A stretch of 64,000 nucleotides of DNA, taken from Opitutia bacterium ISCC 52. Its GTDB lineage: Bacteria; Verrucomicrobiota; Verrucomicrobiia; Opitutales; UBA2995. The stretch covers positions 1,860,001-1,924,000 of the forward strand of contig CP076040.1 of the NCBI GenBank assembly GCA_014529675.2. The letters are read 5' to 3'. Position numbers and translations under genes: made by a program. Below are positions 32,382 to 61,058 of the stretch, piece by piece. How positions within the stretch are numbered: position 1 is the first letter of the stretch; each line of letters opens with the position of its first letter. Below the pieces are notes generated by a model. It worked only from the letters and a program-made list of their open reading frames with translations, searched no databases and had not been told where the DNA came from.

Positions 32382-32390
32382 ACAATCACC

Positions 32391-33827: not shown

Positions 33828-33833
33828 GAAATA

Positions 33834-35479: not shown

Positions 35480-36778
35480 ATGAAATCCCCAAACGTTCCT
35501 GAGACTCAATTCAGTCGCCGTGCCTTTTTGCGAGGTTCGGGTGCACTGGTCGCACTGCCTTTTCTCGAGTCGCTGGCTAAACCTGGGGCTGTTTTTGCCG
35601 CTTCAGGAACCCCCGTAGAGCCCAAGCGCATGGTTTGCATCGGGCTGAACTATGGCATGCATCCTCAAGGGTTTTTTCCCGACGAAGTGGGGCGGAATTA
35701 CAAATTACCCTACCTGCTTAAACCGCTGGAGGGAGTAAGGAATGATTTTACCCTGTTCTCTCATCTGGATCATCCTGGTATTAAAGGTGGGCATGAAGCG
35801 ACCCACACCTTTTTGTCTGGAATTCGAGCAGACATGGCCAAGTCGATGCCCGAGGGGAATATTTCAATGGACCAGAAGGCGGCCGAGTTTGTCGGCTCGG
35901 CTACCCGCTACCCTTCAATGCAGCTCAAGGTAGGTGGAGGTGATAACGGACTCTCCTGGACACGGAATGGTGTCAGTATCCCATCGATGGAGGATCTTCA
36001 GCAAGTTTTCGACGCTCTCTTTCAGGAAACGAATGAAGCTCACAAACGCCGCCTTGCTCGTTCTTACAGACTCAATAGTAGTATTCTGGATGTAGTTCGC
36101 GACGACGCCAAAGACCTCCAAAAAAGATTGAGTGCAAATGACGTCGAAAAGCTCGATGAATATTTCACTTCGGTCCGGGATGTTGAGAAACGTTTGCAGA
36201 TGTCTGAGGCCTGGTTGAACAAACCCAAACCTCAGGTCGACTATCGTTTTCCGAATCCGATGCCGAATGATTTTTATGAAGAAGTTCCTCTCTACTATGA
36301 CCTGATGAAGCTCGCATTGATGACCGACTCCACTCGGGTGATAAGTTATTCGATCAATGGATGGAGTGGAGATTCGGGACTTCCTGGAGTTACTCAAGGG
36401 TACCACGCACTTACCCATCATGGTATGGATCCCACTCGCTTAAAGGAGCTGACCATTATTGAGACCTTCCACGCGAAACAGGTGGCCCGATTCATTTCAG
36501 ACTTAAAAAAGACTCAGGTGGAAGGGGAAGCATCACTTCTTGATAAAACCATGGTGCTTTTTGGAAGTGGAATGGGGAACGCAAGTTCTCACTCCAATCG
36601 TGACTTGCCACTCATTCTTGCCGGTGGAGGTTTCACTCATGGTGAGCACAAGGACTATCCCAAGGTAGGCGACAAACAAACTCCGGCCTGCAATCTTTAT
36701 GTTTCCATGCTGCAGAAGTTTGGTATGGAGCTGGACCAATTCGGAACCAGCACAGGTACCTTGGATGGGTTGAGTTGA
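35480..36778 (+). CDS. DUF1552 protein with Tat-like signal
   Basis: A 432-residue second DUF1552 protein. Signal: SRRAFLRGSGALVALPFLES. Family blocks include GGHEATHTFLSG, SMDQKAAEFVG, the coiled KLDEYFTSVRDVEKRL helix and LFGSGMGNASSHSNRDLPLILAGGG. It precedes the DUF1592 gene by 112 bp, and the spacer contains a REP palindrome (36841-36864), so cotranscription is less certain than in the 16-20 kb pair, where the order is reversed. Function unknown. Confidence 0.88.
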   Translation: MKSPNVPETQFSRRAFLRGSGALVALPFLESLAKPGAVFAASGTPVEPKRMVCIGLNYGMHPQGFFPDEVGRNYKLPYLLKPLEGVRNDFTLFSHLDHPGIKGGHEATHTFLSGIRADMAKSMPEGNISMDQKAAEFVGSATRYPSMQLKVGGGDNGLSWTRNGVSIPSMEDLQQVFDALFQETNEAHKRRLARSYRLNSSILDVVRDDAKDLQKRLSANDVEKLDEYFTSVRDVEKRLQMSEAWLNKPKPQVDYRFPNPMPNDFYEEVPLYYDLMKLALMTDSTRVISYSINGWSGDSGLPGVTQGYHALTHHGMDPTRLKELTIIETFHAKQVARFISDLKKTQVEGEASLLDKTMVLFGSGMGNASSHSNRDLPLILAGGGFTHGEHKDYPKVGDKQTPACNLYVSMLQKFGMELDQFGTSTGTLDGLS

Positions 36779-36840
36779 TTTTAAAAGAAAGTAGGAATTA
36801 ATCACGAATGAACACGAATCTACACGAATTTATAGTTAAG

Positions 36841-36864
36841 GTAGGGCTCCATCGCCGAGGGAGC
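36841..36864 (+). repeat. REP-like palindrome
   Basis: GTAG at 36841, then the stem GGCTCC (36845-36850) / GGAGCC (36859-36864) around ATCGCCGA. It lies in the leader of the DUF1592 gene, 27 bp before its ATG, and may affect translation or mRNA stability between the two genes. Confidence 0.75.
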
Positions 36865-36890
36865 CGTATTGCTGTAGGTCACACCAGATA

Positions 36891-43727: not shown

Positions 43728-46700
43728 ATGAAAACACTCTGTGCTCTTCTTCTGGTTATTTCGTTTACTTCGGTTTTTGCGGCTCCGCTTAAGCTGGTTA
43801 AAGATGAGGAGGCTGAGACCATCTCGGTGTTTCGGCCCAACGGAGAGGAGGCAATCCTTGTTCAGAACGCTCGGTCCGACCACCGGCCGTATTTACATCC
43901 GATTGTTGCTCCGGATGGCAATGGTATCATGACGGAATACAGTCCGGGGCACCACCCCCACCAAACCGGGGTTTATTGGGGAATGACCCGTGTGAATGGC
44001 CGCGACTTTTTTCACAATCCGACCAATGGCTATTGGAAGTTGTTGGAGGCCAATGTAATTGTGGCTGAAGGGGACGTCGTTCAGTGGGAAACGATTTACC
44101 ATATGTTAGACGAAGAGGGCACCGCGCTGATGGAGGAGACACAGGTCTGGTCCATGCGAGATCTGGGTGACCAATATTTCGTAGATCTTATTTGGTCTGG
44201 GAAGGCTCATACCGACATTACGATTTCAGAATACAACTATGGAGGATTATTCCTGCGGATGCCGTTCAAGCGAGGTGTCACCGAGGGAGAGGCCACTAAC
44301 AGTGCCCGTCAGGTCAATGAACGTGCAGAGGGACAACGAGCGTCGTGGGTCAATGTCGGCATGCAAATTGAAGGTCGAGATCCAGATGACTGGGGTCACA
44401 TTGCAGTTTTAGATCATGTGGAGAACGATGCTTATCCCACACCCTGGAGAGTGGATCGTCAGTTGGGGATAGGTCCAGCACGTGCCCGTATGGGCGACTG
44501 GCATATCAAAGCGGGTGAGGTCGCTACCTACAAACATCAGTTGATTGTTTATACGGGTAGATTGAATGACATTCATATGCATGAGGATTGGAAGGCCTAC
44601 ACCGGCCAAAACAACACCTATGCGGAGTGGATCCAGGCTCGTGAGGAAGCCAAGCAGGCAGAGTTCTTAACAGGCGAGGAAGCCATCGCGAAGATGACTG
44701 TTCCTGATGGCCTGGAAGTAACACTGGTAACTTCCGAACCGCAAATCACGCAACCCCTGGCATTCTGCTACGATGATCGTGGGCGCTTATGGATTGCCGA
44801 AAACCGGGACTATGAAACTCGAAGATCCGGTTTCTCGAACGATGGGGAAAGCCGTATTCTTATTTTAGAAGATGAGGATGGTGATGGGAAAATGGATACG
44901 AAGAAAGTATTCATGGAAGGTCTTCCATTTCCCTCGGCCATCGCGGTGGGCTTTGACGGGCTTTGGTTGGGAGCACCGCCCAATCTGATGTTTGTTCCCG
45001 ATCGAGACGGAGACGACAAGGCTGATGACGAAATCGAAGTACGCCTTACGGGGTGGGGTATCCGCGATCGGCATGAAGTATTAAACAGTTTTATTTGGGG
45101 GCCGGATGGGTGGCTCTATGGTTGTCAGGGATTTGCTACACCTTCAACGGTGGGCAAACCAGTCGATGGAGGACGCATTTTCAAGAAAGGGGAACCTTTC
45201 CCCATAAGCCAGGAAGTGGTAGATGGTCAGTTTATTGATGGAGGCATCTTCCGCTACCATCCGATCAAAGAACGTTTTGAGGTGGTTGCTCATGGATTCA
45301 GCAATCCCTGGGGGTTGGACTTCGACGATACCGGACAAGCCTTCATTTCGGCCTGTGTGATTCCTCATGCCTGGCACATAGTGCAAGGTGGGTTCTTCCA
45401 TCGCCAGGGAGGAAAACACATTCACCCCTATGTATATGACGATATCAAAACTATCGGGGATCACCGTCACCGTTCTGCTCACGGGGGTGCCCGGGTTTAT
45501 TTGGCTGATACCTTGCCGGAAGAGTATCATGGCCGACTTTTCATGGCCAACATCCATGAGCATGCGCTCCTCTCGGAAACGCTGGTGCGGAATGGGTCCG
45601 GGTTTATTGCCAAGCACGGTGACGATACGGTCCTGGCAAATGATCCCCAATGGATTGGCTTCAGTCTGGAGATTGGTCCCGATGGTGCCGTCTACATGCT
45701 GGACTGGCACGACGCAGATATCTGCGGAAATGACGTCCACGACAAGGATACCGGTCGGGTTTACCGACTAGCTCCAGAAGGCACGCCGTATCCCACGAAC
45801 TTTGATCTGAAAAAACTCAGCGACCGTGAGCTAGTTGAAATGCAGTTGGATAAAAATGACTGGTACGTTCGGCGTGCTCGCGTCATTCTTCACGAGCGGG
45901 CCGAGGAAAGAGGTCTATCCCAGCAAGAGCATATGCGCCTTTGGGAAATGTTTAAGAATCAAACCGACACAGGTAGAAAGCTAAGAGCCCTCTGGGCACT
46001 GCATGTGACTGGCGGGGTTTCTCAAAAACACCTGACCGGCATGCTGAACAATGATGATGAGTACATCCGTGCCTGGGCTATTCAACTGCTGTGTGAAGAC
46101 ATGGATCCCGGAGAAGCTGCTCTAGCTGAATTTAAAGAGCTGGCGAAGTCCGATCCATCACCGGTTGTTCGACTCTATTTGGCGTCTGCCTTACAACGGA
46201 TTCCTGAGGCTAGTGTTTGGGATCTTGCATCGGGATTGTTGGGGCACGCTGACGATATAGACGATCACAACATCCCCAAGATGATCTGGTTCGGTATTCA
46301 GCCGCACGTAGCTGAAAATCCGGTACTGGCTATGGAGGTTGCTTCCAAGAGTAAGATTCCCATGGTCTCCCAGTTCATTGCTCGACGCGCTACTTCCGGT
46401 AAATTGCTCGAAGCAGTGGTCGAAAGTTTAGCATCCGCCAGCTCTTCCGGTGTTCGCAAGGTGTTGCTGGAAGGGATGCGCGATGGACTGCTCGGTCAAC
46501 GGGATCTGACAGCTCCAGCTAAATGGTCTAACCTGGAGCGTGACTTGTTGAACGATGCCGAATTGAAAAACGTGACACTTCAGGTCGGGCAGCTTTTTGG
46601 TAGCGCGGAAGCTGGCAAGATTCAGCTTGTTGAACTCAATGATTCCTCCACGCCCATTGAGCGCCGTCAGGAAATTATCCGTGGCTTTGCTCAGGATAAA

Positions 46701-47495
46701 TTTCCACCCGCATTCGATTCTATTCTAGGATTCGTGAAGCATCCGGATCTTAGGTTGGATGCCATGAGGACACTGGCATCCTATGAGGATGATGCGATTT
46801 CCAATACGATTCTTTCCCATTACTCTGACTTCACAGCGGATGAAAAGACCGTGGCATTACAAACGCTTTCTACGAGGCGGGACACGGCTCGAACATTGAT
46901 GCGTGCACTCATCAGTAGACGAGTGCCCCGCACTGATGTTTCAGCGGTAGCTGCTCGACAGCTGCGACGCGTGCTAGGCCCCAGCTTCGTAGATTGGTGG
47001 GGCCCGATGGAAACCATGGAGAAAGATAAGGAATTGGCCATTAACCGCTATAAGTTCCTGCTCACCGATGAGTACATGTCGCATGCTGATGTCGTAAACG
47101 GTAAATCGATTTATACCTCCACCTGTGGAGCCTGTCACAAAATGTATGGTGAAGGGGGAGCGATTGGTCCTGACATTACGGGATCCAATCGAGCCGATCT
47201 GGATTATATTCTGACGAACATGATCGATCCGAATGGTGAAGTGGCTGAGTCTTATAAACTGGTGACCATTAGTACTCAGGATGGAAGGACCTACGCCGGT
47301 AATGTTGTAAATGAAGATGATCAACGCGTGACCTTAGCTATGATCGGGCAGGAAGTGATTATTCCAAAATCCGATATCCTTTCTCGTCAAACGTCACCGC
47401 TGTCCATGATGCCGGAAGGCCAACTGAATACGATGGCCGATAGCCAGGTTCGAGACTTGATTGCTTTTCTGAGAACTACTCACCCGATTCAGTAA
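43728..47495 (+). CDS. PmoA-like/PVC-type dehydrogenase/HEAT/cytochrome c fusion protein
   Basis: A 1255-residue exported multidomain protein. Signal residues 1-18. Residues about 20-300 match DUF6807 ('PmoA-like') with PGHHPHQTGVYWG; from about 325 (VPDGLEVTLVTSEPQITQPLAFC) a six-bladed dehydrogenase-like propeller of the PVC 'membrane-bound dehydrogenase' type (DRGRLWIAENRDYE, NPWGLDFDDTG); then HEAT-like helices to about 1080; last a PVC-type cytochrome c domain with CGACH at 1133-1137 and IGPDITGSNR. A soluble periplasmic sugar oxidoreductase passing electrons to its own haem is plausible. First gene of the operon; its stop overlaps the next ATG by one base (TAATG). Confidence 0.9.
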   Translation: MKTLCALLLVISFTSVFAAPLKLVKDEEAETISVFRPNGEEAILVQNARSDHRPYLHPIVAPDGNGIMTEYSPGHHPHQTGVYWGMTRVNGRDFFHNPTNGYWKLLEANVIVAEGDVVQWETIYHMLDEEGTALMEETQVWSMRDLGDQYFVDLIWSGKAHTDITISEYNYGGLFLRMPFKRGVTEGEATNSARQVNERAEGQRASWVNVGMQIEGRDPDDWGHIAVLDHVENDAYPTPWRVDRQLGIGPARARMGDWHIKAGEVATYKHQLIVYTGRLNDIHMHEDWKAYTGQNNTYAEWIQAREEAKQAEFLTGEEAIAKMTVPDGLEVTLVTSEPQITQPLAFCYDDRGRLWIAENRDYETRRSGFSNDGESRILILEDEDGDGKMDTKKVFMEGLPFPSAIAVGFDGLWLGAPPNLMFVPDRDGDDKADDEIEVRLTGWGIRDRHEVLNSFIWGPDGWLYGCQGFATPSTVGKPVDGGRIFKKGEPFPISQEVVDGQFIDGGIFRYHPIKERFEVVAHGFSNPWGLDFDDTGQAFISACVIPHAWHIVQGGFFHRQGGKHIHPYVYDDIKTIGDHRHRSAHGGARVYLADTLPEEYHGRLFMANIHEHALLSETLVRNGSGFIAKHGDDTVLANDPQWIGFSLEIGPDGAVYMLDWHDADICGNDVHDKDTGRVYRLAPEGTPYPTNFDLKKLSDRELVEMQLDKNDWYVRRARVILHERAEERGLSQQEHMRLWEMFKNQTDTGRKLRALWALHVTGGVSQKHLTGMLNNDDEYIRAWAIQLLCEDMDPGEAALAEFKELAKSDPSPVVRLYLASALQRIPEASVWDLASGLLGHADDIDDHNIPKMIWFGIQPHVAENPVLAMEVASKSKIPMVSQFIARRATSGKLLEAVVESLASASSSGVRKVLLEGMRDGLLGQRDLTAPAKWSNLERDLLNDAELKNVTLQVGQLFGSAEAGKIQLVELNDSSTPIERRQEIIRGFAQDKFPPAFDSILGFVKHPDLRLDAMRTLASYEDDAISNTILSHYSDFTADEKTVALQTLSTRRDTARTLMRALISRRVPRTDVSAVAARQLRRVLGPSFVDWWGPMETMEKDKELAINRYKFLLTDEYMSHADVVNGKSIYTSTCGACHKMYGEGGAIGPDITGSNRADLDYILTNMIDPNGEVAESYKLVTISTQDGRTYAGNVVNEDDQRVTLAMIGQEVIIPKSDILSRQTSPLSMMPEGQLNTMADSQVRDLIAFLRTTHPIQ

Positions 47496-48991
47496 TGAAG
47501 CGTTTCTGTGTTACTGTTGTCTTACTGATTTGGATACAAAACCTGGGCTTTTCGGAGCGACCCAATATTCTCTTTTGCATATCGGATGATCAGTCCTGGG
47601 CGCACACCGGGGCCAATGGAGATCCGGTAATCAAAACACCGGCATTTGATCGGGTGGCAAATGAAGGTCTTCGATTTACCAATTCGTTTTGCGATGCACC
47701 GACCTGTGGTCCTTCTCGCAGTGCGATTTTAACGGGGCAGGCGATCTGGCGTCTGGAAGAAGCAGGTAACATTCACAGCACCTTACCGGCTAAGTTCGCC
47801 ACCTACACTGAGGAGCTACAAAAGGTCGGTTACAAAACCGGCTTCACGGGTAAGGGCTGGAGTCCAGGTCGTTTAGAGGCCGGTGGCCGTACTGAGAATC
47901 CAGCAGGCAAGGAGTATACAGCGCGGACATTGGAGGCGCCTTTTCGGTTCATGCGGAACAACGATTATGCTGCGAATTTCGAAGATTTTCTGGGTGAGGT
48001 AGAAGAGGGTGAGGCCTTTTGTTTCTGGCTGGGCACCAGTGAGCCTCATCGTGGCTTTGAGAACGGTGCCGGGATTAAGACCGGTAAGGATCCTTCCAAG
48101 GTCAGGGTGCCTGCGATATTTCCGGATAACGATATCGTGCGCAGTGACATCCTCGATTATTTGGTTGAGATTGAACATTTCGACTCGATGGTCGAGCGAG
48201 CGATCGCTTCTCTTGAGAGACGCGGGCTTCTGGATAACACCATCGTTGTCGTTACCAGCGATCATGGCATGCCCTTTCCACGAGCTAAAGCCAGTCTTTA
48301 CGATTGGGGCTCCAAGGTGCCTTTGGCGATTCGTTGGCCAGAAGGAATTGAAGTAAATGGTCGCGTGGTTGATTCCTTTGTGAATTTGAGCGATCTCGCA
48401 CCGACCTTTCTCGAGGCCGTGGGTGTAGAGGTTCCTGGTATGATGTCTGCAAACAGTTTGATGGATGTATTCGCAAACCGGGAGGTTCACAACCGGGACG
48501 CTGCTTACATCGCGATGGAACGCCACGATGGATGTCGAGCAGGGGGTAAAGGTTATCCCTGTCGTGCGGTTCGAACTAAAGACTTTATGTATATTCACAA
48601 CTTCGAGCCCACTCGTTGGCCGTCGGGTTCGCCGGATGCATCGGTCTGTGCCAGGGCTCTTCCGTATGGTGAAATTGATTCATCACCTACCAAAACATAT
48701 ATGATGGACAATCGGAGCACGCATGGAGTAGCTCACTTGGCTGAGCTTTCTTTTGGAATGCGTCCAGCCGAGGAACTCTACGATTTGAAAAATGATCCGG
48801 AGCAACTGGTCAATCTGGCTGGCAACCAGGAATACAATGCAGTTCAAAACGAACTGCGCAGGAAGCTGTTTAATCACCTTTCAGTCACTCAAGATCCTCG
48901 TGTCGTGGGCGGGAAAGTGGATTGGGATTACTATCCTTATTATGGAGCAATGAGGAATAAAAACTGGAAAGTAGCGGAGAGACCGGAATGA
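47495..48991 (+). CDS. Secreted sulfatase (first of a tandem pair)
   Basis: A 498-residue S1-type sulfatase. Signal residues 1-20. The formylglycine motif CGPSR starts at Cys71; metal-binding SDDQS and TSDHGMPFPRAKASLYD are present. It is closest to heparan N-sulfatase-like members, as is its neighbour downstream, with which it shares long stretches (CISDDQSWAH, RLEEAGNI versus RLEEAANI, WLGTSEPHR), so the two come from a tandem duplication. Translation is coupled on both sides: TAATG with the dehydrogenase and ATGA with the next sulfatase. Substrate unknown. Confidence 0.93.
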   Translation: MKRFCVTVVLLIWIQNLGFSERPNILFCISDDQSWAHTGANGDPVIKTPAFDRVANEGLRFTNSFCDAPTCGPSRSAILTGQAIWRLEEAGNIHSTLPAKFATYTEELQKVGYKTGFTGKGWSPGRLEAGGRTENPAGKEYTARTLEAPFRFMRNNDYAANFEDFLGEVEEGEAFCFWLGTSEPHRGFENGAGIKTGKDPSKVRVPAIFPDNDIVRSDILDYLVEIEHFDSMVERAIASLERRGLLDNTIVVVTSDHGMPFPRAKASLYDWGSKVPLAIRWPEGIEVNGRVVDSFVNLSDLAPTFLEAVGVEVPGMMSANSLMDVFANREVHNRDAAYIAMERHDGCRAGGKGYPCRAVRTKDFMYIHNFEPTRWPSGSPDASVCARALPYGEIDSSPTKTYMMDNRSTHGVAHLAELSFGMRPAEELYDLKNDPEQLVNLAGNQEYNAVQNELRRKLFNHLSVTQDPRVVGGKVDWDYYPYYGAMRNKNWKVAERPE

Positions 48992-50592
48992 AAATTCCCA
49001 GAGCTTTAAATCTCAATAATGACGGCATCGCGAGGACGCGATTGCCCTACCTTTTAATTGCTAGCCTGGTAGGGCTACTGCGTCCTCGCAGTGCCATATT
49101 AAGCTGTTTTATCCTCTTGTCTCTCGCCTCTAGCCTCTCGCCTCTGACGGCTGAAAGCCGCCCCAACATCCTCTTCTGTATCTCCGACGATCAATCCTGG
49201 GCTCATATGGGAGCCAATGGTGATCCTATTGTCCAGACTCCTGCTTTCGATCGCGTATCCGATGAAGGATTACGTTTTATAAATTCCTACTGTGATGCTC
49301 CGACCTGTGGGCCGTCCAGAAGCGCTATTGTGACAGGGCAACACATTTGGCGTTTGGAAGAAGCGGCCAATATCTGGAGTACGCTTCAAGCCAAGTTCGC
49401 GACTTATACAGAGGAGCTGCAGAAGGCAGGTTATAAAGTGGGTTCCACGGGTAAAGCTTGGGCCCCTGGGCGTTTAGAGCCAGGAGGAAGAACCGAAAAC
49501 CCTGCGGGCAAGCCCTACAACACCAGAACTCTAAAGGCACCCTATGGGGCGATGAGGAACACGGACTACGCCGGAAATTTTGAAGGCTTTTTGTCGGAAG
49601 TAGGGCAGAGCCAACCGTTTTGCTTTTGGCTGGGCACCAGCGAACCGCATCGTCCCTATGAAAATGGTGCTGGTATCAAGTCCGGGAAGGATCCTTCCCA
49701 GGTAATCGTGCCAGCGATCTTTCCGGACAATGACATCGTCCGCAGTGACATTTTGGACTACTATGTAGAAATTGAGCACTTTGATTCCATGGTTGCGCGC
49801 GCTATCGCTACGCTTGATGAACGAGGTCAGTTGGACAACACGATCGTAGTGATCACCAGTGACCACGGCATGCCATTTCCCAGAGGCAAAGCGACCTTGT
49901 ATGATGACGGATCACGTGTGCCGTTGGCCATCCGGTGGGCAGATGGAATTAAGAACGCTGGGCGAGTGATAGATTCTCCGGTCAACCTCAGTGACTTGGC
50001 GCCCACCTTCCTGGAAGCAGCAGGAGTAAACGTTCCGGATATGATGACCGGGCGAAGTATGATGGATCTGTTTGATGATAACCCCACGATCGATCGAGCC
50101 GCAGCCTTCATTGCATTTGAACGCCATAGTGGAGCTCGTGCCGGTGGCAAAGGTTACCCCAGTCGTGCGATCCGTACGAAGGATTACATGTATATCTATA
50201 ATTTCGAACCGGATCGTTGGCCATCCGGCTCTCCCGATCCGGAGATGTGCAACCGTCTGATTCCATTTGGGGAATACGATAATTCCCCAACAAAGACCTT
50301 TATGGTGGAAAATCGTTACAAGCATGGCGTTGCACATTTGGCAGAGCTGGCGTTTGGGAAGCATCCGGCGGAAGAGTTCTACATCATCAAGGACGACCCA
50401 CACCAAATGAACAATCTGGCTGGAAATCTGAAACACCTGGCCACTCAAAACTCTTTGCGACGGCAATTATTTGATTACTTGGAAAAGACAGAAGACCCTC
50501 GAGTAGTGGGAGGGACGGTCGATTGGGACTACTACCCGCACTACGGAAATCGTGCTAACAAAAACTGGAAAGTAGACGAGAAACCAAAATGA
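48988..50592 (+). CDS. Secreted sulfatase (second of the pair) with REP-encoded N-terminus
   Basis: A 534-residue S1-type sulfatase with CGPSR at Cys107 and TSDHGMPFPRGKATLYD. It is a paralogue of the gene before it. The start ATG overlaps the previous stop (ATGA). The N-terminus is odd: after about eleven residues, the frame passes through an inverted REP pair (49023-49095) and reads VGLLRPRSAIL directly before the hydrophobic core SCFILLSLASSLS. The signal therefore has an n-region near 40 residues. A TTG at codon 19 could shorten it. The paralogue lacks this insertion and has a normal 20-residue signal, so the REPs are a later addition. Confidence 0.9.
   Translation: MKIPRALNLNNDGIARTRLPYLLIASLVGLLRPRSAILSCFILLSLASSLSPLTAESRPNILFCISDDQSWAHMGANGDPIVQTPAFDRVSDEGLRFINSYCDAPTCGPSRSAIVTGQHIWRLEEAANIWSTLQAKFATYTEELQKAGYKVGSTGKAWAPGRLEPGGRTENPAGKPYNTRTLKAPYGAMRNTDYAGNFEGFLSEVGQSQPFCFWLGTSEPHRPYENGAGIKSGKDPSQVIVPAIFPDNDIVRSDILDYYVEIEHFDSMVARAIATLDERGQLDNTIVVITSDHGMPFPRGKATLYDDGSRVPLAIRWADGIKNAGRVIDSPVNLSDLAPTFLEAAGVNVPDMMTGRSMMDLFDDNPTIDRAAAFIAFERHSGARAGGKGYPSRAIRTKDYMYIYNFEPDRWPSGSPDPEMCNRLIPFGEYDNSPTKTFMVENRYKHGVAHLAELAFGKHPAEEFYIIKDDPHQMNNLAGNLKHLATQNSLRRQLFDYLEKTEDPRVVGGTVDWDYYPHYGNRANKNWKVDEKPK
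49023..49095. repeat. Inverted REP pair inside a coding sequence
   Basis: Reverse copy: GTAG at 49049-49046 with GCAATCGCG / CGCGATGCC-type stem back to 49023. Forward copy: GTAG at 49069 with stem GGCTACTGCG / CGCAGTGCC to 49095. Both lie in frame inside the sulfatase N-terminus. Confidence 0.75.
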
Positions 50593-50606
50593 AATTGCTG
50601 AAAAAG

Positions 50607-50764
50607 GTAGGGCTCGATCGCCGAGCGAGCCGTTGTGTTAGGAATGGGTCGCGAACAAGTTTGCTCCTACATTCAAAAAAAGAGGCAATGGTGGTGACAC
50701 CATGGATCAAGGGAGAAATCGCGTTATCGGGGAATCGATTCCATGGTCTTACGACCATGGCTAC
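50607..50764. repeat. Three REP-like palindromes at the start of a sulfatase frame
   Basis: Forward copy 50607-50631 (GTAG, then GGCTCG / CGAGCC arms). Reverse copy 50648-50670 ending in CTAC, with GAACAAG/CTTGTTC-type arms. Reverse copy 50741-50764: perfect 8-bp stem CCATGGTC / GACCATGG followed by GGCTAC overlap, so minus-strand GTAG starts at 50764. The last stem contains the ATG at 50757. Confidence 0.75.
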
Positions 50765-52256
50765 ATTTCTAGTCCTCCTGTCGCTAGTCTTTGGCCTCTC
50801 CTCTCTTTGCGCGAATGATCGTCCAAACATCCTGTTCATATTTTCGGATGATCACACTTGGCAGACGATCTCAGCCTATGGGCATCCCTTATCCAAGGTC
50901 GTACCGACGCCGAATATCGATCGGATTGCTGATGAGGGTATTCGCTTCGACCGATGCCTGGTCACGAATTCAATTTGTGCTCCCTCGCGTGCGGTCGTGC
51001 TCACTGGAAAATATTCCCATCTGAATGGGCAGATCAATAATTACAATACCTTTGACGGAAGTCAGGTAACCTTTCCCCAGTTGCTGCAGAAATCCGGTTA
51101 CCAGACGGCTATCGTTGGCAAGTGGCATTTGAAATCGGTACCCACGGGATTCGACTACCATGAAGTAATGCGTGGGCAAGGTCGTTATTACAATCCAACC
51201 CTCTACACCGATGGAAAACCTACGGAGTATGAAGGCTACAATACAGACGTGGTCGTGGACCGATCATTGAATTGGCTAAAGAGTCGGGACTCGGATCAGC
51301 CATTCATGCTGATGGCTCAATTCAAAGCCACTCACGGCCCCTTTCAACCAGCCTTGCGCCATCTGGGTGAGCTGGATGATGTCAGCGTTCCCATGCCGGA
51401 CAATTTTTTCGACGACTACAGTGGCCGCAGTCGCGCTCCTGGTAATCACAATACCAGCATCGCAGAGGTAATGCCCCTTAGTAATCTAAGCCTCGAATAT
51501 AGGAATATTCAGGGAGAGCAGCTCGCTGAATATCAGAGCCACTTCGCTGCGGCCAATGAGGCCTTTGAAAAGGCCAATCTACAAGGTGACGAACGGGCAA
51601 AGTGGCGTTACCAGCGCTTTATAAAAAACTTCCTTCTGACGAGCAAAGCTATCGATGAAAATGTAGGTCGTTTACTGAACTACCTTGACGAGAGTGGATT
51701 GGCGGAAAACACCATCGTGATCTACGCGGCAGACCAGGGCTTTTTTCTGGGGGAGCATGGTTGGTATGACAAGCGCTGGATGTATGAGGAGTGTTTGAAA
51801 ACACCGCTCGTGGTTCGCTGGCCAGGGGTAACTCAAGCAGGTCAGGTCAATAATGATCTCGTTTCGAACCTGGATTTCGCTCCCATGTTTCTCGAACTGG
51901 CAGGAGCGTCGATTCCGAGCGCCATTCAAGGTCGCAGTTTGGTTCCTTTGTTGAAAGGCAATGCTCCTCAAAACTGGAGAAAGAGCTTCTATTACAAATA
52001 CTACGGTGAGAGATTTGGGGGCAGTGTGAGTGAAGGCTACTATAATCATGGTGTGCCACCACATGAGGGTGTGGCCACCAGTCGCTACAAGCTCATCCAT
52101 TTTAAGCACGACGAGGTGGATGAATGGGAGTTTTTTGATCACGAGCGTGATCCCAGTGAAATGAACAGCGAGTATGGGAACCCTGAATACGGACCGAAGA
52201 TAGCTGAATTGAAAACAGAGATTGTCCGATTGAAAAATCATTACGGTGTCGATTAA
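50757..52256 (+). CDS. Secreted sulfatase (third in the operon)
   Basis: With the ATG at 50757 the protein has 499 residues and a clean signal (MATFLVLLSLVFGLSSLCA). The formylglycine motif is CAPSR at Cys74; the later GWYDKRWMYEECLKTPLVVRWPG and DLDFAPMFLELAG-like blocks resemble DUF4976-ended S1 sulfatases, a different subfamily from the two before. The frame is open back to an ATG at 50589 that forms ATGA with the previous stop; that version would add 56 residues made largely of three REPs and bury the signal, so I prefer 50757, but the start codon then lies inside a REP stem. No strong Shine-Dalgarno site was seen for either. Confidence 0.87.
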   Translation: MATFLVLLSLVFGLSSLCANDRPNILFIFSDDHTWQTISAYGHPLSKVVPTPNIDRIADEGIRFDRCLVTNSICAPSRAVVLTGKYSHLNGQINNYNTFDGSQVTFPQLLQKSGYQTAIVGKWHLKSVPTGFDYHEVMRGQGRYYNPTLYTDGKPTEYEGYNTDVVVDRSLNWLKSRDSDQPFMLMAQFKATHGPFQPALRHLGELDDVSVPMPDNFFDDYSGRSRAPGNHNTSIAEVMPLSNLSLEYRNIQGEQLAEYQSHFAAANEAFEKANLQGDERAKWRYQRFIKNFLLTSKAIDENVGRLLNYLDESGLAENTIVIYAADQGFFLGEHGWYDKRWMYEECLKTPLVVRWPGVTQAGQVNNDLVSNLDFAPMFLELAGASIPSAIQGRSLVPLLKGNAPQNWRKSFYYKYYGERFGGSVSEGYYNHGVPPHEGVATSRYKLIHFKHDEVDEWEFFDHERDPSEMNSEYGNPEYGPKIAELKTEIVRLKNHYGVD

Positions 52257-52285
52257 TGCGCCACACTAATTTTTAGAAAGGCACC

Positions 52286-53170
52286 ATGAATAGGATTGTT
52301 TATCGTGCTCTGGTTTTATGGTTGGTTCTTCTTAGCACCTACGCTTCGGCGCAGAACAGATCCGCAGGAAATCAGAGCCGGTCTGTCATGTCTGATGAAG
52401 AGCTACTCGCCATAGCTCCCGAGGGCGTGACCGTGTTTCCCGACTTGGTTTATCGTGAAGGGCATGATGCCTGGAAACTTGATTTGGCGATGCCAACTGA
52501 GAAGTCTGACACTCCGCTTCCTGTGATTGTGTATCTGCATGGAGGGGGTTGGACTCAAGGCGACAAACGTGGACAAGGAATCGGAACGGTCCTCGGTTAT
52601 GCGACTCAAGGCTTCGTTGGAATCTCGGTTAACTATCGGCTGGATGTGGATAAGATGGCCTGTATTGAAGATGCCAAATGCGCCATTCGCTGGCTACGTG
52701 CTCATGCTGAGCAGTATAATGTGGATCCAAATCGTATCGGTGTAGCCGGAAATTCAGCCGGTGCTCATCTGGCGTTGATGCTAGCGCTCTACCATCCTTC
52801 CGCTGGTCTCGAAGGCGACGGTCCTTATCAGGAGTTTTCCAGTGCTGTACAAGCCGCGCATTGCAGCTCAACACCCATCATGCCACGCTTCGGACGTGGC
52901 AAAGCTGCAGGTAGGGATGTTAAGCAGATTCAGCCCATGACTTATGTGCGAGCCGATGCTCCACCGCTTTATTTTATACACGGTGCTCAGGACCTTAGAA
53001 AGGCTCCTATTCAATACATGGATGCATTTGTGGAAGCCATGCGGGAGTTGGGGGTGAAAGATATGACTTATAAGCGCCACGAAGACGCTGGTCACGGCGT
53101 CTACGTGCAATACCTCCAAACCGCGCGTCCCGCTCGCACCGCTTTTTTTGAGAGGACGCTGAAGGAATAA
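52286..53170 (+). CDS. Secreted alpha/beta hydrolase (carbohydrate-esterase-like)
   Basis: A 294-residue esterase. Signal residues 1-22 (ending ASAQ). Oxyanion motif HGGGW at 85-89; nucleophile Ser157 in VAGNSAGAHLAL; Asp in HGAQDLRKAP and His in DAGHGVYVQ complete the triad. The BD-FAE/CE10-like architecture fits removal of acetyl or similar esters from glycans, agreeing with its place 29 bp after three sulfatases in the same operon; the exact ester is inferred only. Confidence 0.9.
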   Translation: MNRIVYRALVLWLVLLSTYASAQNRSAGNQSRSVMSDEELLAIAPEGVTVFPDLVYREGHDAWKLDLAMPTEKSDTPLPVIVYLHGGGWTQGDKRGQGIGTVLGYATQGFVGISVNYRLDVDKMACIEDAKCAIRWLRAHAEQYNVDPNRIGVAGNSAGAHLALMLALYHPSAGLEGDGPYQEFSSAVQAAHCSSTPIMPRFGRGKAAGRDVKQIQPMTYVRADAPPLYFIHGAQDLRKAPIQYMDAFVEAMRELGVKDMTYKRHEDAGHGVYVQYLQTARPARTAFFERTLKE

Positions 53171-55415: not shown

Positions 55416-55500
55416 GAATAGGTTGAAGAGCTGTAATTGGGTTGGTGTTTTCATTTCCATGATGTAACCTTTTTTGATAATAATCCGTTTTGTATTATTG

Positions 55501-56145
55501 ATGCGACTAGTCATATTATCAGCGAAGAGAACTAAAGGCTTTGAGTGGCTACTCTTTGCGGTCTGTTTGTGCCTGATCCCCTTTTTAGGGGGATTGCATG
55601 CTGAGGAGGGGGCGGTTTCTTCTGTCACCGATCACATGCCCTTTTCGATAAAGGATATTGATGGGCAGCAAATACATCCATTTCAGGTGAATGACGCCAA
55701 GGGATCGGTTCTTATTTTTGTGACCCATGACTGTCCTATATCCAATGCCTATGCTCCTGAAATGAGTCGCCTAAGGAATGAATACGAGGAAAAAGGGTTT
55801 AAGATGATGCTCGTGTATGTGGATCCTGACGCGAGTGATGAAAATATCAAAACCCATATGAGAGATTTCAGTTTGAATGGCTACACAGCGATTGCTGATA
55901 AAACACATCGGCTGGTGAAAGTCGTTGGAGCTACTGTGACCCCTGAAGTGGCTTTGGTACTTCCTGATGGATCGCTGTCCTACCGTGGGCGTATCGACAA
56001 CATGTATCCAGCGCTTGGGCAACGCCGCAGAGTTATCACCGAGAAAGACCTGCGCAATGCTTTGAATGCCATTGTTGAAAACGAACCCGTAACCGTTTCA
56101 AGAACTCAGGCCATTGGGTGTTACATGCCCAACTTACAATTTTAA
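55501..56145 (+). CDS. Exported redoxin (AhpC/TSA-like) domain protein
   Basis: About 214 residues from the ATG at 55501 (an ATG nine codons upstream is possible). A single membrane-spanning or signal segment (WLLFAVCLCLIPFLGGLHA) is followed by a thioredoxin fold with FVTHDCPISNAY; the usual CxxC is CPIS, so a one-cysteine type. The cis-proline area is VTPEVALVLPDG, and the tail ends AIGCYMP. This type is often linked to cytochrome/monooxygenase proteins; indeed it lies 19 bp before such a gene. A role in maturing or serving its copper/haem partner is plausible. Confidence 0.82.
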   Translation: MRLVILSAKRTKGFEWLLFAVCLCLIPFLGGLHAEEGAVSSVTDHMPFSIKDIDGQQIHPFQVNDAKGSVLIFVTHDCPISNAYAPEMSRLRNEYEEKGFKMMLVYVDPDASDENIKTHMRDFSLNGYTAIADKTHRLVKVVGATVTPEVALVLPDGSLSYRGRIDNMYPALGQRRRVITEKDLRNALNAIVENEPVTVSRTQAIGCYMPNLQF

Positions 56146-56164
56146 TTCTTCTTCATCAGAAACT

Positions 56165-57613
56165 ATGAAAGCCTTCCATTACCTTCTAGTCGCACCCATT
56201 CTTTTAGCCGGGATAACGATCCAAGCGAAGGAAGAACGGGTCACATTCAGTGAACATATTGCGCCCATCGTTTTTAATAATTGTACTGCCTGCCATAGGC
56301 CCAATGAAGCCGCTCCTTTTTCGTTGATGAATTACCGGGATGTGCAAAAACGCGCGGAGCTCATACTGACCGTTGTCGAAGATCGCTATATGCCTCCCTG
56401 GCATGCCAACTCAAGAGATTTTGAGTTTCAGGATCATCGTCAGTTGGCTGATTCGGATATTCAAACAATCGAGACCTGGGTCGAAACCGGAATGGCGGAA
56501 GGTGATCCTGGTAAATTGCCAGCCATGCCAAAGTTCACCGATGGATGGCAACTTGGAGAACCTGACCTAGTGGTGAGCATGGCGGAAGGGTATACCTTAT
56601 ATGCTGAAGGGCCGGATATTTATCGCAACTTTGTGATCCCTCTCAACTTGACTGAGGATAAGTGGATTCAAGCGTTTGAGTTTCGACCAGGAGAACGATC
56701 CATCGTTCATCATTCTCTCTTTTACTATGATACGAGTGGAGAAGCCCGTGCACGAGATGCTGAGGATCCTATTCCTGGTTACAAACGGATGGGGCGCGAC
56801 CGCGAAGGTGGCGGCATCGGCGGTTGGGCTGTAGGAGGTATTCCTAAAAAACTGCCTGAGGGGCTGGCCTATCGTTTGCCCAAGGGATCTGACCTGATTC
56901 TTTCGACTCACTTTCACCCATCGGGTAAAGAGGAGACCGAAGTGTCGACAGTGGGACTTTATTTTTCAGATGAACCGCCTACTCAGAAATTTGCGGGAGT
57001 TCAATTGCCGCCTGTCTTTGGTGCGTTGGCAGGAGTAAATATACCTGCCGGGGATAGCAATTATACCAAACGCGACTCCTTCGTCCTTCCTGTAGATGTA
57101 AAAGCATTTGGCGTAAGTTCTCATGCCCATTATTTGGGGAAGAGCATGAATATGACGGCCACCTTACCAAACGGTGAGGAGCGGGAATTGTTGTCCATCA
57201 CTGATTGGGATTTCTCCTGGCAGGAACAGTATCGTTACAAGGACTACATTTTCTTACCCGCTGGGACAAAGCTAGATGCCGCGGTTACCTGGGATAATTC
57301 ATCCGATAACATCAATAATCCTAATGATCCTCCTATACCTGTAAAATGGGGACGGGAATCAAATGATGAAATGGGGAGTGTGACCTTGCAGATGTTTGCG
57401 GCTAATCCGCGTGAATTTCCAGAGCTTAGGCAGGCAATACAGCAGCATGTAGCGGAATCGGGTATGAAAGCGCGTGGTGGAAGATTGGCTCAAAACGCAA
57501 ACCGACCTCGTGGGGCACAGCTAAAGCGCTTAATCGAACAATTCGATAAAGACGGAGACGGTAAGTTGAGTCCTGCTGAACGCCAAGCCGCGCGCGAGGC
57601 TTTTGGGCGGTAA
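56165..57613 (+). CDS. Copper monooxygenase-like protein with haem c motif and EF-hand end
   Basis: About 482 residues with the ATG at 56165; upstream starts lie inside the redoxin gene. Signal to residue 21. CTACH at 40-44 begins a small cytochrome-like part (RYMPPWHANSRDFEF). The body resembles the two-domain PHM/DBH copper type II ascorbate-dependent monooxygenases: candidate copper ligands occur in VHHSLFYYD, STHFHPSG and SHAHYLGKSM. The tail FDKDGDGKLSPAE is an EF-hand. A haem domain feeding electrons to a copper oxygenase would be an attractive design, inferred from the domains. Substrate unknown. Partner of the redoxin gene. Confidence 0.82.
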   Translation: MKAFHYLLVAPILLAGITIQAKEERVTFSEHIAPIVFNNCTACHRPNEAAPFSLMNYRDVQKRAELILTVVEDRYMPPWHANSRDFEFQDHRQLADSDIQTIETWVETGMAEGDPGKLPAMPKFTDGWQLGEPDLVVSMAEGYTLYAEGPDIYRNFVIPLNLTEDKWIQAFEFRPGERSIVHHSLFYYDTSGEARARDAEDPIPGYKRMGRDREGGGIGGWAVGGIPKKLPEGLAYRLPKGSDLILSTHFHPSGKEETEVSTVGLYFSDEPPTQKFAGVQLPPVFGALAGVNIPAGDSNYTKRDSFVLPVDVKAFGVSSHAHYLGKSMNMTATLPNGEERELLSITDWDFSWQEQYRYKDYIFLPAGTKLDAAVTWDNSSDNINNPNDPPIPVKWGRESNDEMGSVTLQMFAANPREFPELRQAIQQHVAESGMKARGGRLAQNANRPRGAQLKRLIEQFDKDGDGKLSPAERQAAREAFGR

Positions 57614-57799: not shown

Positions 57800-59608
57800 A
57801 TGAAATTCTTCAAACTAGCGCTCTCACTCCTCGTTACTTCGACCACTTTGTTCGCAAAACCCAATGTGATTGTGGTTATGACTGACGACCAGGGATATCC
57901 TGAATTGTCAGTACACGGAAATCCCATACTGAAAACCCCTCACCTCGATCGCCTGCATAGTGAGAGCATACGTTTGGAGGATTACCACGTATCTCCCATG
58001 TGTGCGCCGACGCGCGGTCAGTTGATGACCGGCTTGGATGCCGCCCGGAATGGATGCATCAATGTGAGTAGTGGACGAGCGCTCTTGCGACCTGAGTTAC
58101 CGACCATAGCCAACTTCTTTGGTGATGCCGGGTATGCGACCGGTCTTTTCGGGAAATGGCATTTAGGGGCTAATTATCCGTTCAGGCCCGAAGACCGTGG
58201 ATTCGATGAAACCTGCTGGTTTCCGTCCTCTCATATCGGCTCCGTGCCAGATTATTGGGGCAATGACTATTTTGATGACACCTATGTAAACAATGGGAAG
58301 TGGAAGCAGTATAAAGGCTACTGCACGGATGTGTTTTTTGAAGAGGGCATGTCGTTTATGAAGCAGGCGGCCAAGGAAGGGAAACCGTTCATGGCGATCA
58401 TTATGCCCAATACACCCCATGGCCCCCTGGTTGCAAAGGATGAAGACGAAGCGAAGATCCTGAAAATCCTGGAACAACCGGAATTTGCCAATATGAACCG
58501 CGCGCTCAAGACTCGTCTGGCCGACTACCTCGGGATGATCATCAACATCGACGACAACATGGGCACCATGATGAAATTTCTCGAAGACGAGGGATTGAGA
58601 GACGACACCATTATCACATTTCAAACGGATAATGGCAGCACACACGGTCCTCTCTACTACAACGCCGGAATGCGTGGATCCAAAACGGAGCTATGGGAAG
58701 GTGGTCATCGCGTGCCCTTCCTCATCAGTTGGCCGAATGGTGGGCTGTTGAAATCGCAGGACATTCATGGACTGACTCAGGTTCAGGATATTTTACCGAC
58801 TTTGCTCGATCTCTGTGACATCCCCAGAGAAGCCAAGTTTGACGGCATGAGTCTCGCTTCCATTTTTAGGGGAAAGGCAGTGGTTCCAGAAGACCGCATG
58901 CTGGTCATTAACTACAGTCGTATGCCAGGCTTTGTGAATTATCCAACGCCATTTGCGCAGACGCTCATGCAGCGGAATTTGGGTGAAGTGCTTTGGAAAC
59001 GCTGGCGACTCCTTGAGGATCGAGAGCTTTATAATCTCGAGACCGATCCATTGCAGCAGAACAACGTCATCGATAAGCACCCGAAGGTGTTGGCGAAGAT
59101 GCGAAACAGACTGGATGATTGGTGGGCTGATGTGGGTCCGAATGCCAACGATGTGCAACGAGTCATAATTGGCAGTGAGCACGAGAATCCATCGCGCCTC
59201 ACCGGCTGTGAATGGTTGGATGTATTCATCGACCAACAACGTCAGATTCGTGTAGGGCAGGAGAAGAGTGGTTACTGGATGCTCGAGGTGGCGGAAGACG
59301 GTGAATACGACTTTGAGCTCCGTCGTTGGCCCATAGAAATAGACCGGCCCATCAACGCTCCGTCTGAGGGAGGTCAGGGAGCCATCAATGTGGATACGGC
59401 CAGCTTCTATTTAAGCGACTACCATCACCTGGATATTGGGGATAAAACACCCTACCGTTTCGAAGGCTTGAACAAGTCTATCGGACCCGATGATACAGGT
59501 ATTACTTTTACCGCTCAGCTCAAAAAGGGACCCATTGCACTTCACACCTGGTTTCGCGGCCCGACGACTACGATGAGCGCGTACTACGTCTATGTGACAA
59601 AGAAGTGA
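57800..59608 (+). CDS. Secreted sulfatase with C-terminal beta domain
   Basis: A 602-residue S1-type sulfatase. Signal residues 1-19; motif CAPTR at Cys68 (Thr replaces the usual Ser, tolerated in Cys-type sulfatases); FQTDNGSTHGPL and the KWHLG block are present. After about residue 470 an extra beta-rich domain (YWMLEVAEDGEYDFELRRWP to AYYVYVTKK) is appended; a homologous fragment recurs at 62997-63314. The next sulfatase starts 13 bp after its stop behind a good Shine-Dalgarno site, suggesting one transcript. Confidence 0.92.
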   Translation: MKFFKLALSLLVTSTTLFAKPNVIVVMTDDQGYPELSVHGNPILKTPHLDRLHSESIRLEDYHVSPMCAPTRGQLMTGLDAARNGCINVSSGRALLRPELPTIANFFGDAGYATGLFGKWHLGANYPFRPEDRGFDETCWFPSSHIGSVPDYWGNDYFDDTYVNNGKWKQYKGYCTDVFFEEGMSFMKQAAKEGKPFMAIIMPNTPHGPLVAKDEDEAKILKILEQPEFANMNRALKTRLADYLGMIINIDDNMGTMMKFLEDEGLRDDTIITFQTDNGSTHGPLYYNAGMRGSKTELWEGGHRVPFLISWPNGGLLKSQDIHGLTQVQDILPTLLDLCDIPREAKFDGMSLASIFRGKAVVPEDRMLVINYSRMPGFVNYPTPFAQTLMQRNLGEVLWKRWRLLEDRELYNLETDPLQQNNVIDKHPKVLAKMRNRLDDWWADVGPNANDVQRVIIGSEHENPSRLTGCEWLDVFIDQQRQIRVGQEKSGYWMLEVAEDGEYDFELRRWPIEIDRPINAPSEGGQGAINVDTASFYLSDYHHLDIGDKTPYRFEGLNKSIGPDDTGITFTAQLKKGPIALHTWFRGPTTTMSAYYVYVTKK

Positions 59609-59621
59609 TATGGAGGAGAAT

Positions 59622-61058
59622 ATGAATAGTCTATTGAATCGAAATGTAGGGCTACTGCGTCACCGCAGTGCCGTTCTCAGCATCTTTTTCTGCCTCTTTT
59701 CTCTAGCCTCTAGCCTCTCGTCTGTTTGGGCGGCAGGCCGCCCAAATATCCTCTTCATCGCCGTCGACGATTTGAACGATTGGGTGGGGCACTTAGGAGG
59801 ACACCCTCAGGCAAAGACGCCGAATATAGACCGATTGGCCGGGAAGGGAGTTTCCTTTACCAAGGCTTACTGCAATGCCCCGCTGTGTAATCCTTCACGT
59901 GTGAGTTTATTCTCAGGCATTCGTCCCTCGAATTCTGGAGTCTATGGGAATGGGGAAATGATGCGTGCTAAGATTCCGGATACGGTGACCTTGATGCAGC
60001 ACTTACGTGAGGCGGGTGATTATTCGGTTCAGGGTGGGGGTAAGACCTTTCATGGAAGTGGGCCCTACGATCAGGCATCCTGGGATTATTACAATACACC
60101 GCCACGTGCGAGACAGGTGGGAAAAAGAGATGAAGGTTTGGCAAAAGATGCCTGGGCACCCTGGGGACCCCTGGATGTGGAAGATTCTGAAATGTTTGAT
60201 GTAAAGAATGTGAATTGGGCGATTTCCGAGTTAGAAAAATCGCACGACAAACCCTTCTTTATCGCCTGCGGATTTACCAAGCCCCACATGCCTTGGTTTG
60301 TCCCCCAGAAATACTTCGATCTGCATCCGCGGGAAAGCATCATCTTGCCGGAAACTTTAGAAAATGATCGGGATGATCTTCCTTACTGGGGTAAGAAATT
60401 TGCTCAAGAGGTGCACGATGTTTCAGGCGCAAGAAACTTTGCGACTCATGGTGAAGATCATGACATGATTTTGAAACACAACCAATGGGAACGTGCGGTT
60501 CAAAGCTATCTGGCGACCATTAGTTTTGTAGATGCGCATATAGGGCGACTATTGGATACCTTGGAAGCAAGCGAGCACGCGGATAATACTATCATCGTTC
60601 TCTGGGGTGATCATGGTTGGCACTTGGGCGAAAAACAACATTGGCGTAAGCATGCGCTGTGGGATGTTACGACACGAACCACCCTTATTATGGCTGGACC
60701 TGAATCGATCCAGGTGGGTCAACTTTGTGACCGACCGGTGAGTCTTATTGATATCTATCCCACGATGCTGGAGTTGACCGGAGTTCCTCAACGCGATGGA
60801 CTCGATGGGCAAAGTATCGTTCCGCTACTCGAGAATCCGAAACGCCTCTGGGATCAGCCAGTTCTCATGACTTTTGGATACCAAAATCACGCAGTGCAAA
60901 CCGATCGTTGGCGTTACATTCAATACAATGATGGAGGCCAGGAACTATACGATCACTTGCAGGATCCAAACGAATGGACCAACCTCGCCAGTGATCCGAA
61001 GTATCGAACGGTGATTGGGAATCTGCAAAGATCGTTACCGTCTGAGAACGTCCACTAG
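59622..61058 (+). CDS. Secreted iduronate-2-sulfatase-like sulfatase with REP-encoded signal start
   Basis: About 478 residues. Start ATG at 59622 is preceded by GGAGGAG with a 5-nt spacer; an ATG at 59610 lies before that site. The N-terminus reads MNSLLNRN, then VGLLRHRSAV translated from a REP (59646-59672), then the hydrophobic core LSIFFCLFSLASSLSSVWAA. CNPSR at Cys89 is the formylglycine motif; WGDHGWHLGEKQHWRKHALW is the metal-site region. It is the closest intact relative of the disrupted gene at 33935-35374. Probably exports normally since the core is intact. Confidence 0.9.
   Translation: MNSLLNRNVGLLRHRSAVLSIFFCLFSLASSLSSVWAAGRPNILFIAVDDLNDWVGHLGGHPQAKTPNIDRLAGKGVSFTKAYCNAPLCNPSRVSLFSGIRPSNSGVYGNGEMMRAKIPDTVTLMQHLREAGDYSVQGGGKTFHGSGPYDQASWDYYNTPPRARQVGKRDEGLAKDAWAPWGPLDVEDSEMFDVKNVNWAISELEKSHDKPFFIACGFTKPHMPWFVPQKYFDLHPRESIILPETLENDRDDLPYWGKKFAQEVHDVSGARNFATHGEDHDMILKHNQWERAVQSYLATISFVDAHIGRLLDTLEASEHADNTIIVLWGDHGWHLGEKQHWRKHALWDVTTRTTLIMAGPESIQVGQLCDRPVSLIDIYPTMLELTGVPQRDGLDGQSIVPLLENPKRLWDQPVLMTFGYQNHAVQTDRWRYIQYNDGGQELYDHLQDPNEWTNLASDPKYRTVIGNLQRSLPSENVH
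59646..59672 (+). repeat. REP-like palindrome inside a sulfatase signal region
   Basis: GTAG at 59646, stem GGCTACTGCG / CGCAGTGCC to 59672. Same frame and nearly the same peptide (VGLLRHRSAV) as the copy at 49069-49095 (VGLLRPRSAI). Confidence 0.75.

Follow-up and report, generated by a model that had tools for sequence, protein, structure and literature searches.

A 64,000-nucleotide stretch of the Opitutia bacterium ISCC 52 genome (contig CP076040.1, positions 1,860,001 to 1,924,000), called the window here, carries at its positions 43728-53170 a gene for a four-domain fusion protein, three sulfatase genes and an esterase gene. The fusion protein is the subject of this work. The sequence-only reading, an earlier reading of this DNA made without database searches, had placed five plus-strand open reading frames (ORFs) at 43728-47495, 47495-48991, 48988-50592, 50589-52256 and 52286-53170, and all five positions were right. 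The features of the fusion gene were assigned from the ORF list, curated profiles and AlphaFold2 (AF2) models:

43728..47495, + strand: fusion protein of 1255 residues (signal peptide, DUF6807, propeller, HEAT repeats, cytochrome c)
43869..44591, + strand: DUF6807 (PF14100) domain, residues 48-288; 153.3 bits against a cut-off of 27
44676..45779, + strand: six-bladed propeller, TIGR02604/DUF7133, residues 317-684; TIGR02604 310.8 bits against 122.2
45384..45461, + strand: propeller loop, residues 553-578; AF2 model and alignment
45810..46997, + strand: helical repeat region (HEAT); HEAT_2 profile at residues 771-843, helices in the AF2 model
47085..47477, + strand: TIGR02603/cytochrome c domain, residues 1120-1250; TIGR02603 126.9 bits against 68.15
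47124-47138, + strand: CGACH haem motif; translation
47409-47411, + strand: distal Met1228; alignment to 7zs0 and conservation

Architecture and distribution of the fusion

The fusion begins with a signal-peptide-like stretch (residues ~1-19, by eye). Both curated cut-offs (TIGR02604 and TIGR02603) are passed, so that the fusion is a PVC-type heme-binding CxxCH protein. It shares with these proteins the propeller, the haem domain and the HEAT repeats between them, but has an extra N-terminal DUF6807. Six other TIGR02604 proteins of the source genome have different N-termini, for example ThuA-like or FG-GAP-like by eye. Two AF2 models were made, one of residues 1-705 (mean predicted local distance difference test, pLDDT, 83.7) and one of residues 305-1255 (83.4), each with a predicted template modelling score of 0.78.

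The DUF6807 domain is all-beta in the AF2 model. PmoA proper, the particulate methane monooxygenase protein (PF02461) with its membrane helices, was rejected as a candidate: Pfam lists no match to that family for the fusion up to E 0.01, and the model shows beta structure throughout the domain. The term 'PmoA-like' in the sequence-only reading is thus an old database label of PF14100, formerly named 'methane oxygenase PmoA' and now DUF6807 (old name in the accessible parts of PMC5342196 and PMC10291797); the propeller and cytochrome parts it had named are borne out by the curated profiles. No match was found in the Protein Data Bank (PDB) by a profile search with the first 705 residues, and the same search with DUF6807 gave two matches to an S-layer protein, at E 4.7 and 5.1, which were taken as chance. 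A galactose mutarotase fold was considered, and comparison of GalM with DUF6807 gave an hhalign probability of 0.2%, with one sequence only. Invariant polar residues of an enzyme-like kind are present in both DUF6807 and the propeller. The DUF6807 alignment (A5) was built without L009, L010 and L014, whose frame looked wrong in the preceding alignment (A4), and several DUF6807 loci, such as L018, L024, L025, L027, L029 and L030, lie outside both. The source genome has four DUF6807 places, one of them in a long frame. Another DUF6807 gene, in a frame of 509 codons, has a TIGR02604 gene some 2.5 kb away on the opposite strand (genome 2204630-2205508 and 2201175-2202176).

In a scan of species genomes, 362 of 366 pattern matches encode a relative, and the best 80 of these 362 loci were kept. 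All 80 encode the four-domain fusion in one frame, with 51-89% identity. Some are cut by contig ends, and the frame of L139 begins at query residue 164. By record title, 32 are from Verrucomicrobiota, 46 from Bacteroidota (Dyadobacter fermentans and Runella zeae among the named species) and 2 from Planctomycetota. In a tree of 81 rows made by a quick method, the window groups, with full support, with 12 other rows, all of them Verrucomicrobiota, and the fusion is carried by G003, a genome of the same genus. Close DUF6807 matches (E up to 1e-15), not all in long frames, were found in 9 of 387 genomes drawn evenly from the phylum, and any DUF6807 match (E up to 0.001), mostly in frames below 550 codons, in 38 of 132 relatives; both counts include the source genome. 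These results indicate that the four-domain fusion is real and conserved, is no artefact and is not special to the operon in the window. As far as its accessible parts go, the literature on PF14100, DUF6807 and DUF7133 gave no description of this fusion.

The haem ligands were compared in an alignment (A2) of the window, 79 of the 80 loci (L093 omitted) and two paralogs. CxxCH and Met1228 are invariant in 79 of the 79 rows with letters, and 3 more rows are gapped there. Met1228 aligns with Met292 of the dihaem cytochrome c Kustd1711 (7zs0), which is the distal haem ligand of that protein (accessible part of PMC11791136). The two proteins are alike in the C-terminal haem domain with its distal Met, but Kustd1711 has two haem domains and no propeller. 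The predicted haem site of the fusion is therefore intact. One ResB-type frame over the cut-off (two pieces, one frame) is present in the source genome.

Propeller fold and cofactor site

The best matches of the propeller by VIA-align are pyrroloquinoline quinone (PQQ) sugar dehydrogenases and AA12 enzymes, with rows of the first model spanning residues 315-700. The entry 3a9g gave Z 29.8 (root-mean-square deviation 2.9 over 297 residues) and 6i1t gave Z 28.2 (3.0 over 300), and the second model was headed by the same entries. By Foldseek, rank 1 was a putative glucose dehydrogenase for the first model and a soluble PQQ glucose dehydrogenase for the second. The likeness to soluble PQQ glucose and aldose sugar dehydrogenases (PF07995) and to the AA12 enzymes of Coprinopsis and Trichoderma thus lies in the fold (Z 24.7 to 29.8). 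Coprinopsis AA12, too, carries an attached cytochrome, a cytochrome b rather than the cytochrome c of the fusion.

The six-bladed propeller of the GSDH/ASD/AA12 enzymes is present in the fusion, but their PQQ/calcium motifs are not, and the fusion is His-rich instead. In a mixed MAFFT alignment of the fusion, the GSDH proteins of the source genome and E. coli YliI, the last of these and the two strongest GSDH rows carry the motifs RNxQG and EHGPxGGDE and an R ahead of the last PDG. The counterparts in the fusion are SNPWG and ACVIPHxWH, with no Arg ahead of the last GPDG. Presumably these motifs hold the PQQ- and calcium-binding residues. Conservation was read from an alignment (A1, 77 rows) of the window and 76 of the 80 loci, with L075, L080, L120 and L139 omitted for a cut or late N-terminus. 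The PQQ/calcium positions are replaced by Ser525, Cys543, His547 and Ser646 in 77/77 rows and by His550 in 76/77; the Arg of RNPxG is Ser in every row, and the HGPxxxDE loop is a C-V-I-P-H-x-W-H-type stretch. PF07995 (GSDH) is not among the families listed for the fusion by Pfam. His449 adjoins the column of the catalytic His region without lying exactly on it.

Within residues 317-690, 13 of 17 His are invariant in the 77 rows, versus 151 of 374 residues overall (hypergeometric p 0.002), and none of the 13 Lys is. The loop at residues 553-578, which comes after the motif aligned with the PQQ/calcium loop of the GSDH proteins, has low pLDDT, and 13 of its 26 positions are invariant versus 10.5 expected, that is, about the propeller average. 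Among the six other TIGR02604 proteins of the genome, L049 shares 11 of the 13 invariant His, L050 shares 8 and the remaining four share 1 or 2. This pattern suggests that the cofactor of the propeller pocket is not canonical PQQ/calcium and that the invariant His, Asp and Cys set may bind a metal or other cofactor absent from the AF2 model. Degenerate propeller and haem sites, a possibility raised in the sequence-only reading, were not what was found: the haem site appears intact, and the propeller is highly conserved, yet without the known PQQ/calcium motifs.

The source genome encodes separate GSDH proteins scoring over the cut-off. It has two PqqE matches, neither over the cut-off, and 14 control genomes likewise had none over it; in the PqqC search no control genome was positive. 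At genome 2009770-2012192 a GSDH gene is followed by pieces of a second GSDH gene with an in-frame TAG.

Sulfatases and other neighbours

The genes after the fusion, with two further sulfatases beyond 53170 and one repeat, are:

47495..48991, + strand: sulfatase A (CGPSR), PF00884; best solved match called an S1_8A sulfatase
48988..50592, + strand: sulfatase B (CGPSR), PF00884, a close paralog of A; profile and comparison
50589..52256, + strand: sulfatase C (CAPSR), PF00884, ORF start at 50589; profile
52286..53170, + strand: BD-FAE family alpha/beta hydrolase with a GNSAG motif; 133.3 bits against 26.8
57800..59608, + strand: sulfatase D; orthologs accompany the fusion in G006 and G003
59610..61058, + strand: sulfatase E; orthologs accompany the fusion in G006 and G003
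49024-49095, no strand assigned: palindromic dispersed repeat with 28-nt arms, in frame at the 5' end of sulfatase B

The three sulfatases and the esterase of the sequence-only reading were confirmed: A, B and C combine PF00884 with an intact C-x-P-S-R in translation, which places them among S1 sulfatases (PF00884 and C-x-P-x-R), and the fourth product is a BD-FAE-type alpha/beta hydrolase. The nearest solved relatives of sulfatase C include N-acetylglucosamine-6-sulfatase and exo-L-galactose-6-sulfatase. The orthologs of D and E are 78-88% identical in G006 and G003, and since they accompany the fusion there, the neighbourhood extends past 53170 to these two genes.

The junction letters that had been reported (TAATG, ATGA, ATGA) are correct, but the ATGA between B and C is probably not a real gene start. 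Dispersed genomic repeats account for a large part of the first 56 codons in ORF 50589 (47 matches, query included): two of them, other than the palindromic one, lie at 50601-50676. The G006 ortholog begins at residue 57 of the window's ORF, so that the true start of sulfatase C is probably ATG 50757 and the overlap with B accidental. The junction between the fusion and A is the best founded of the four. Its TAATG overlap has counterparts in L073 and L074 (-4), L076 (-1) and L075 (2-base gap), where an A/B-type sulfatase (70-85% identical) adjoins the fusion. Between sulfatase C and the esterase there is a gap of 29 bases (52257-52285). Promoter-like sites (9 versus 12.0 in shuffles) and terminator-like sites (14 versus 10.8, standard deviation 3.5) are not clearly above the shuffles, and the putative operon rests on gene spacing and conservation.

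A sulfatase lies within 3 kb of the fusion in 18 of the 31 Verrucomicrobiota loci with any neighbour, in 0 of 46 Bacteroidota loci and in 0 of 2 Planctomycetota loci. In the window and in 6 of the 31 Verrucomicrobiota loci, the first gene after the fusion encodes a sulfatase on the same strand (gaps -4, -4, 2, -1, 20 and -35). The order of fusion and sulfatase, for which a synteny search had been proposed, therefore recurs in part of the Verrucomicrobiota and is absent within 3 kb in Bacteroidota. In the window's clade of 13 rows, 11 have a gene next downstream, and it is a sulfatase in 7 of them, window included (binomial p 5e-6 at an assumed chance of 8%, for rows that share descent and of which L073 and L074 are near copies). 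Of the 17 rows of an Opitutae group, 8 have a sulfatase as the nearest upstream gene (L081, L082, L083, L088, L089, L092, L094 and L097), 7 have a gene for a second DUF7133-cytochrome protein directly downstream, and 5 have Gfo/Idh downstream. The Verrucomicrobiota rows outside the 30-row branch (L103, L138 and L139) have no sulfatase among the neighbours listed. The sulfatase label falls on 19 of 80 scored rows (window included) and needs at least 9 changes on the tree, so a sulfatase neighbour appears to have been repeatedly gained or lost, although early contig ends add to this count. Judged from these gene neighbourhoods, the sulfatase partnership is lineage-specific, and the putative link with sulfated glycans is a trait of one lineage rather than of the fusion itself.

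Other neighbours in relatives include genes for Gfo/Idh, xylose-isomerase-like TIM barrel, ThuA, second DUF7133-cytochrome and BD-FAE esterase proteins. The TIM barrel was found in 13 of 80 loci and a redoxin in 9 of 80 and in the window, and those listed near the fusion are from Dyadobacter records. A gene like a flavin adenine dinucleotide-dependent L-2-hydroxyglutarate oxidase (by eye) adjoins the fusion in G001 and G003 (L032 12143-13363 and L033 5984-7204). In G006, the region after the fusion (L071 13768-15010) holds remnants of a sulfatase start and sulfatase tail and of a second fusion start, by eye a decayed tandem duplication.

The palindromic repeat in sulfatase B has 39 matches genome-wide, query included and with some places counted on both strands. 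It also lies partly in sulfatase E (59646-59672), and in G005 (L034) the sulfatase C ortholog contains it in frame near its 5' end. The idea that such repeats are typical of sulfatase signal peptides was considered and rejected. The repeats are mostly ordinary intergenic ones, because 19 of the 22 copies in 20 genome stretches, which cover some of the 39 matches, fall between genes and 3 inside a longest-ORF call (L160, second copy only; L161; L172).

The single match to PF03781 (formylglycine-generating enzyme, FGE) in the source genome, found by a search with that profile only, lies at 3118363-3119178 and holds an in-frame TAG, in spite of the 150 or more sulfatase matches of this genome. 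On the minus strand of the window, a sulfatase gene at 33935-35374 (genome 1894223-1895287) is split by one in-frame TAA. At 55474-57613 a redoxin ORF overlaps a 499-residue ORF with CTACH near its N-terminus, for which Pfam gives weak EF-hand matches and nothing else at E up to 0.01. Upstream of the fusion, at 29493-39398, PSCyt/PSD, DUF1501 and DUF1552 proteins of known planctomycete type are encoded.

Proposed function and its alternatives

The fusion may be a secreted periplasmic enzyme that oxidises or oxidatively cleaves sugars, feeds its own haem and is made together with sulfatases in Opitutales, a reading to which we give about even chances. Directly supported are the four domains, the predicted propeller fold, the invariant haem ligands, the conservation across three phyla and, for some Opitutales, a sulfatase gene close behind the fusion. 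A sugar or oligosaccharide would be bound in the top pocket of the propeller and oxidised or oxidatively cleaved there; in the Opitutales lineage the neighbouring enzymes would first remove its sulfate and ester groups. DUF6807 would act on the same substrate or its product, and the electrons would pass through the fusion's own His/Met haem c to the respiratory chain. DUF6807 and the propeller parts likely cooperate, because the domains fused here are neighbours elsewhere. The propeller-HEAT-haem protein Lac161_ORF7 of a Chthoniobacter-like cosmid (the Lac161_ORF7/Lac161_ORF9 system) has the same layout without DUF6807, and its putative operon includes PF14100 as a separate gene (accessible part of PMC5342196); that system, reported as a beta-galactosidase, is likened to the fusion by description and not by sequence.

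Several points weigh against this proposal. As far as its accessible parts go, the literature on the family gave no demonstrated redox activity, and the sole purified relative, Lac161_ORF7, is reported there as a hydrolase. Foldseek ranks 2-4 of the first model are Deinococcus Cu/Zn superoxide dismutase, and HHIP, a non-enzyme, matches the propeller at Z 23.8 by VIA-align, so the fold alone gives no function. The PQQ motifs are absent, and the hhalign comparison of the propeller alignment with YliI gave 1.5% probability and no usable alignment, so that the motif comparison rests on MAFFT and the fold. G006 keeps the fusion but, over 16 kb, lacks orthologs of sulfatases A and B, of which remnants survive. 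Sulfatases also abound in the source genome, with at least 150 matches (all those scored, of 312 candidates), so that some sulfatase adjacency is expected.

A doubtful but serious possibility is that the sulfatase linkage is incidental and the fusion a redox enzyme of wider use, sulfatases coming to lie beside many genes where a genome is rich in them; this is compatible with every functional reading. The Bacteroidota and Planctomycetota loci, all free of sulfatases within 3 kb, fit this, as do the many sulfatase matches of the source genome and G001, which has the fusion and no homolog of a window sulfatase in 20 kb. It is opposed by the overlapping or nearly overlapping junctions with an A/B-kind sulfatase in the window, L073, L074, L075 and L076, and by the neighbouring Opitutae group, where the gene next upstream is a sulfatase in 8 of 17 rows. 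A different view of the chemistry, which we consider unlikely, is that the propeller hydrolyses a glycosidic bond as Lac161_ORF7 reportedly does and that the haem is structural or redox-sensing. This non-redox glycosidase stays a rival because that purified relative, lacking DUF6807, was reported to hydrolyse lactose with a Km of 1.8 mM (accessible part of PMC5342196), and 18 Paludisphaera homologs of it were counted among putative glycoside hydrolases (accessible part of PMC5352709). However, hydrolysis alone hardly explains the invariant haem ligands and the dehydrogenase-type fold, and the haem or cofactor content of the tested protein is not stated in the accessible part of PMC5342196.

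An ordinary PQQ sugar dehydrogenase that takes up external PQQ would agree with the best fold matches (PQQ enzymes and AA12) and with the GSDH proteins over the cut-off in the same genome. The Ser in place of the RNPxG Arg in 77/77 rows, the replaced HGPxxxDE loop and the lack of an Arg ahead of the last GPDG make it quite improbable. The two PqqE matches stay below a cut-off that none of the 14 controls passed. A non-catalytic carbohydrate-binding or docking protein, like HHIP with the same fold, is very unlikely. HEAT repeats serve as docking modules, which would suit such a role, but the enzyme-like invariant polar residues in both domains and the intact haem site speak against it.

The sequence-only reading had proposed that a desulfated sugar product is oxidised in the periplasm. 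The signal-peptide-like start, dehydrogenase fold, invariant haem ligands and tight downstream sulfatase agree with this plausible idea, of which the redox chemistry and the specificity for sulfated glycans are hypothetical parts. A definition of the fusion by sulfated glycans is not supported, given 0 of 46 Bacteroidota loci with a sulfatase within 3 kb and the many sulfatases of the genome. The route had also been called less studied. Cytochrome proteins of the PVC group beside sulfatases, with a suggested carbohydrate role, are already in print for the PSCyt/PSD proteins of Verrucomicrobia (accessible part of PMC5615132), which have cytochrome and PSD domains other than those of the fusion and are of the kind also encoded upstream in the window. 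In a paper on a Verrucomicrobiota bloom (PMC8857213) the word cytochrome is absent. What is new here is how widely the four-domain chain is spread, that an intact haem site accompanies a His-rich propeller of non-PQQ type, and that the partnership with sulfatases is specific to a lineage.

A bolder form of the oxidative proposal, rather unlikely to hold in full, is that the propeller contains a cofactor new to this fold. A metal centre on some of the invariant His (449, 547, 558, 564, 579, 581, 585, 610, 612 and 661), together with Asp659/662/664 and Cys543/666, would be wired to the fused haem c. With DUF6807 as a second active site, the fusion would then form a class of its own among periplasmic sugar oxidoreductases or oxidative glycosidases; three phyla would share it, and in Opitutales it would have been recruited for work on sulfated glycans. 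Since the fusion is present in isolates such as Dyadobacter fermentans and Runella zeae, its function is testable there, and the Opitutales loci suggest the partner enzymes.

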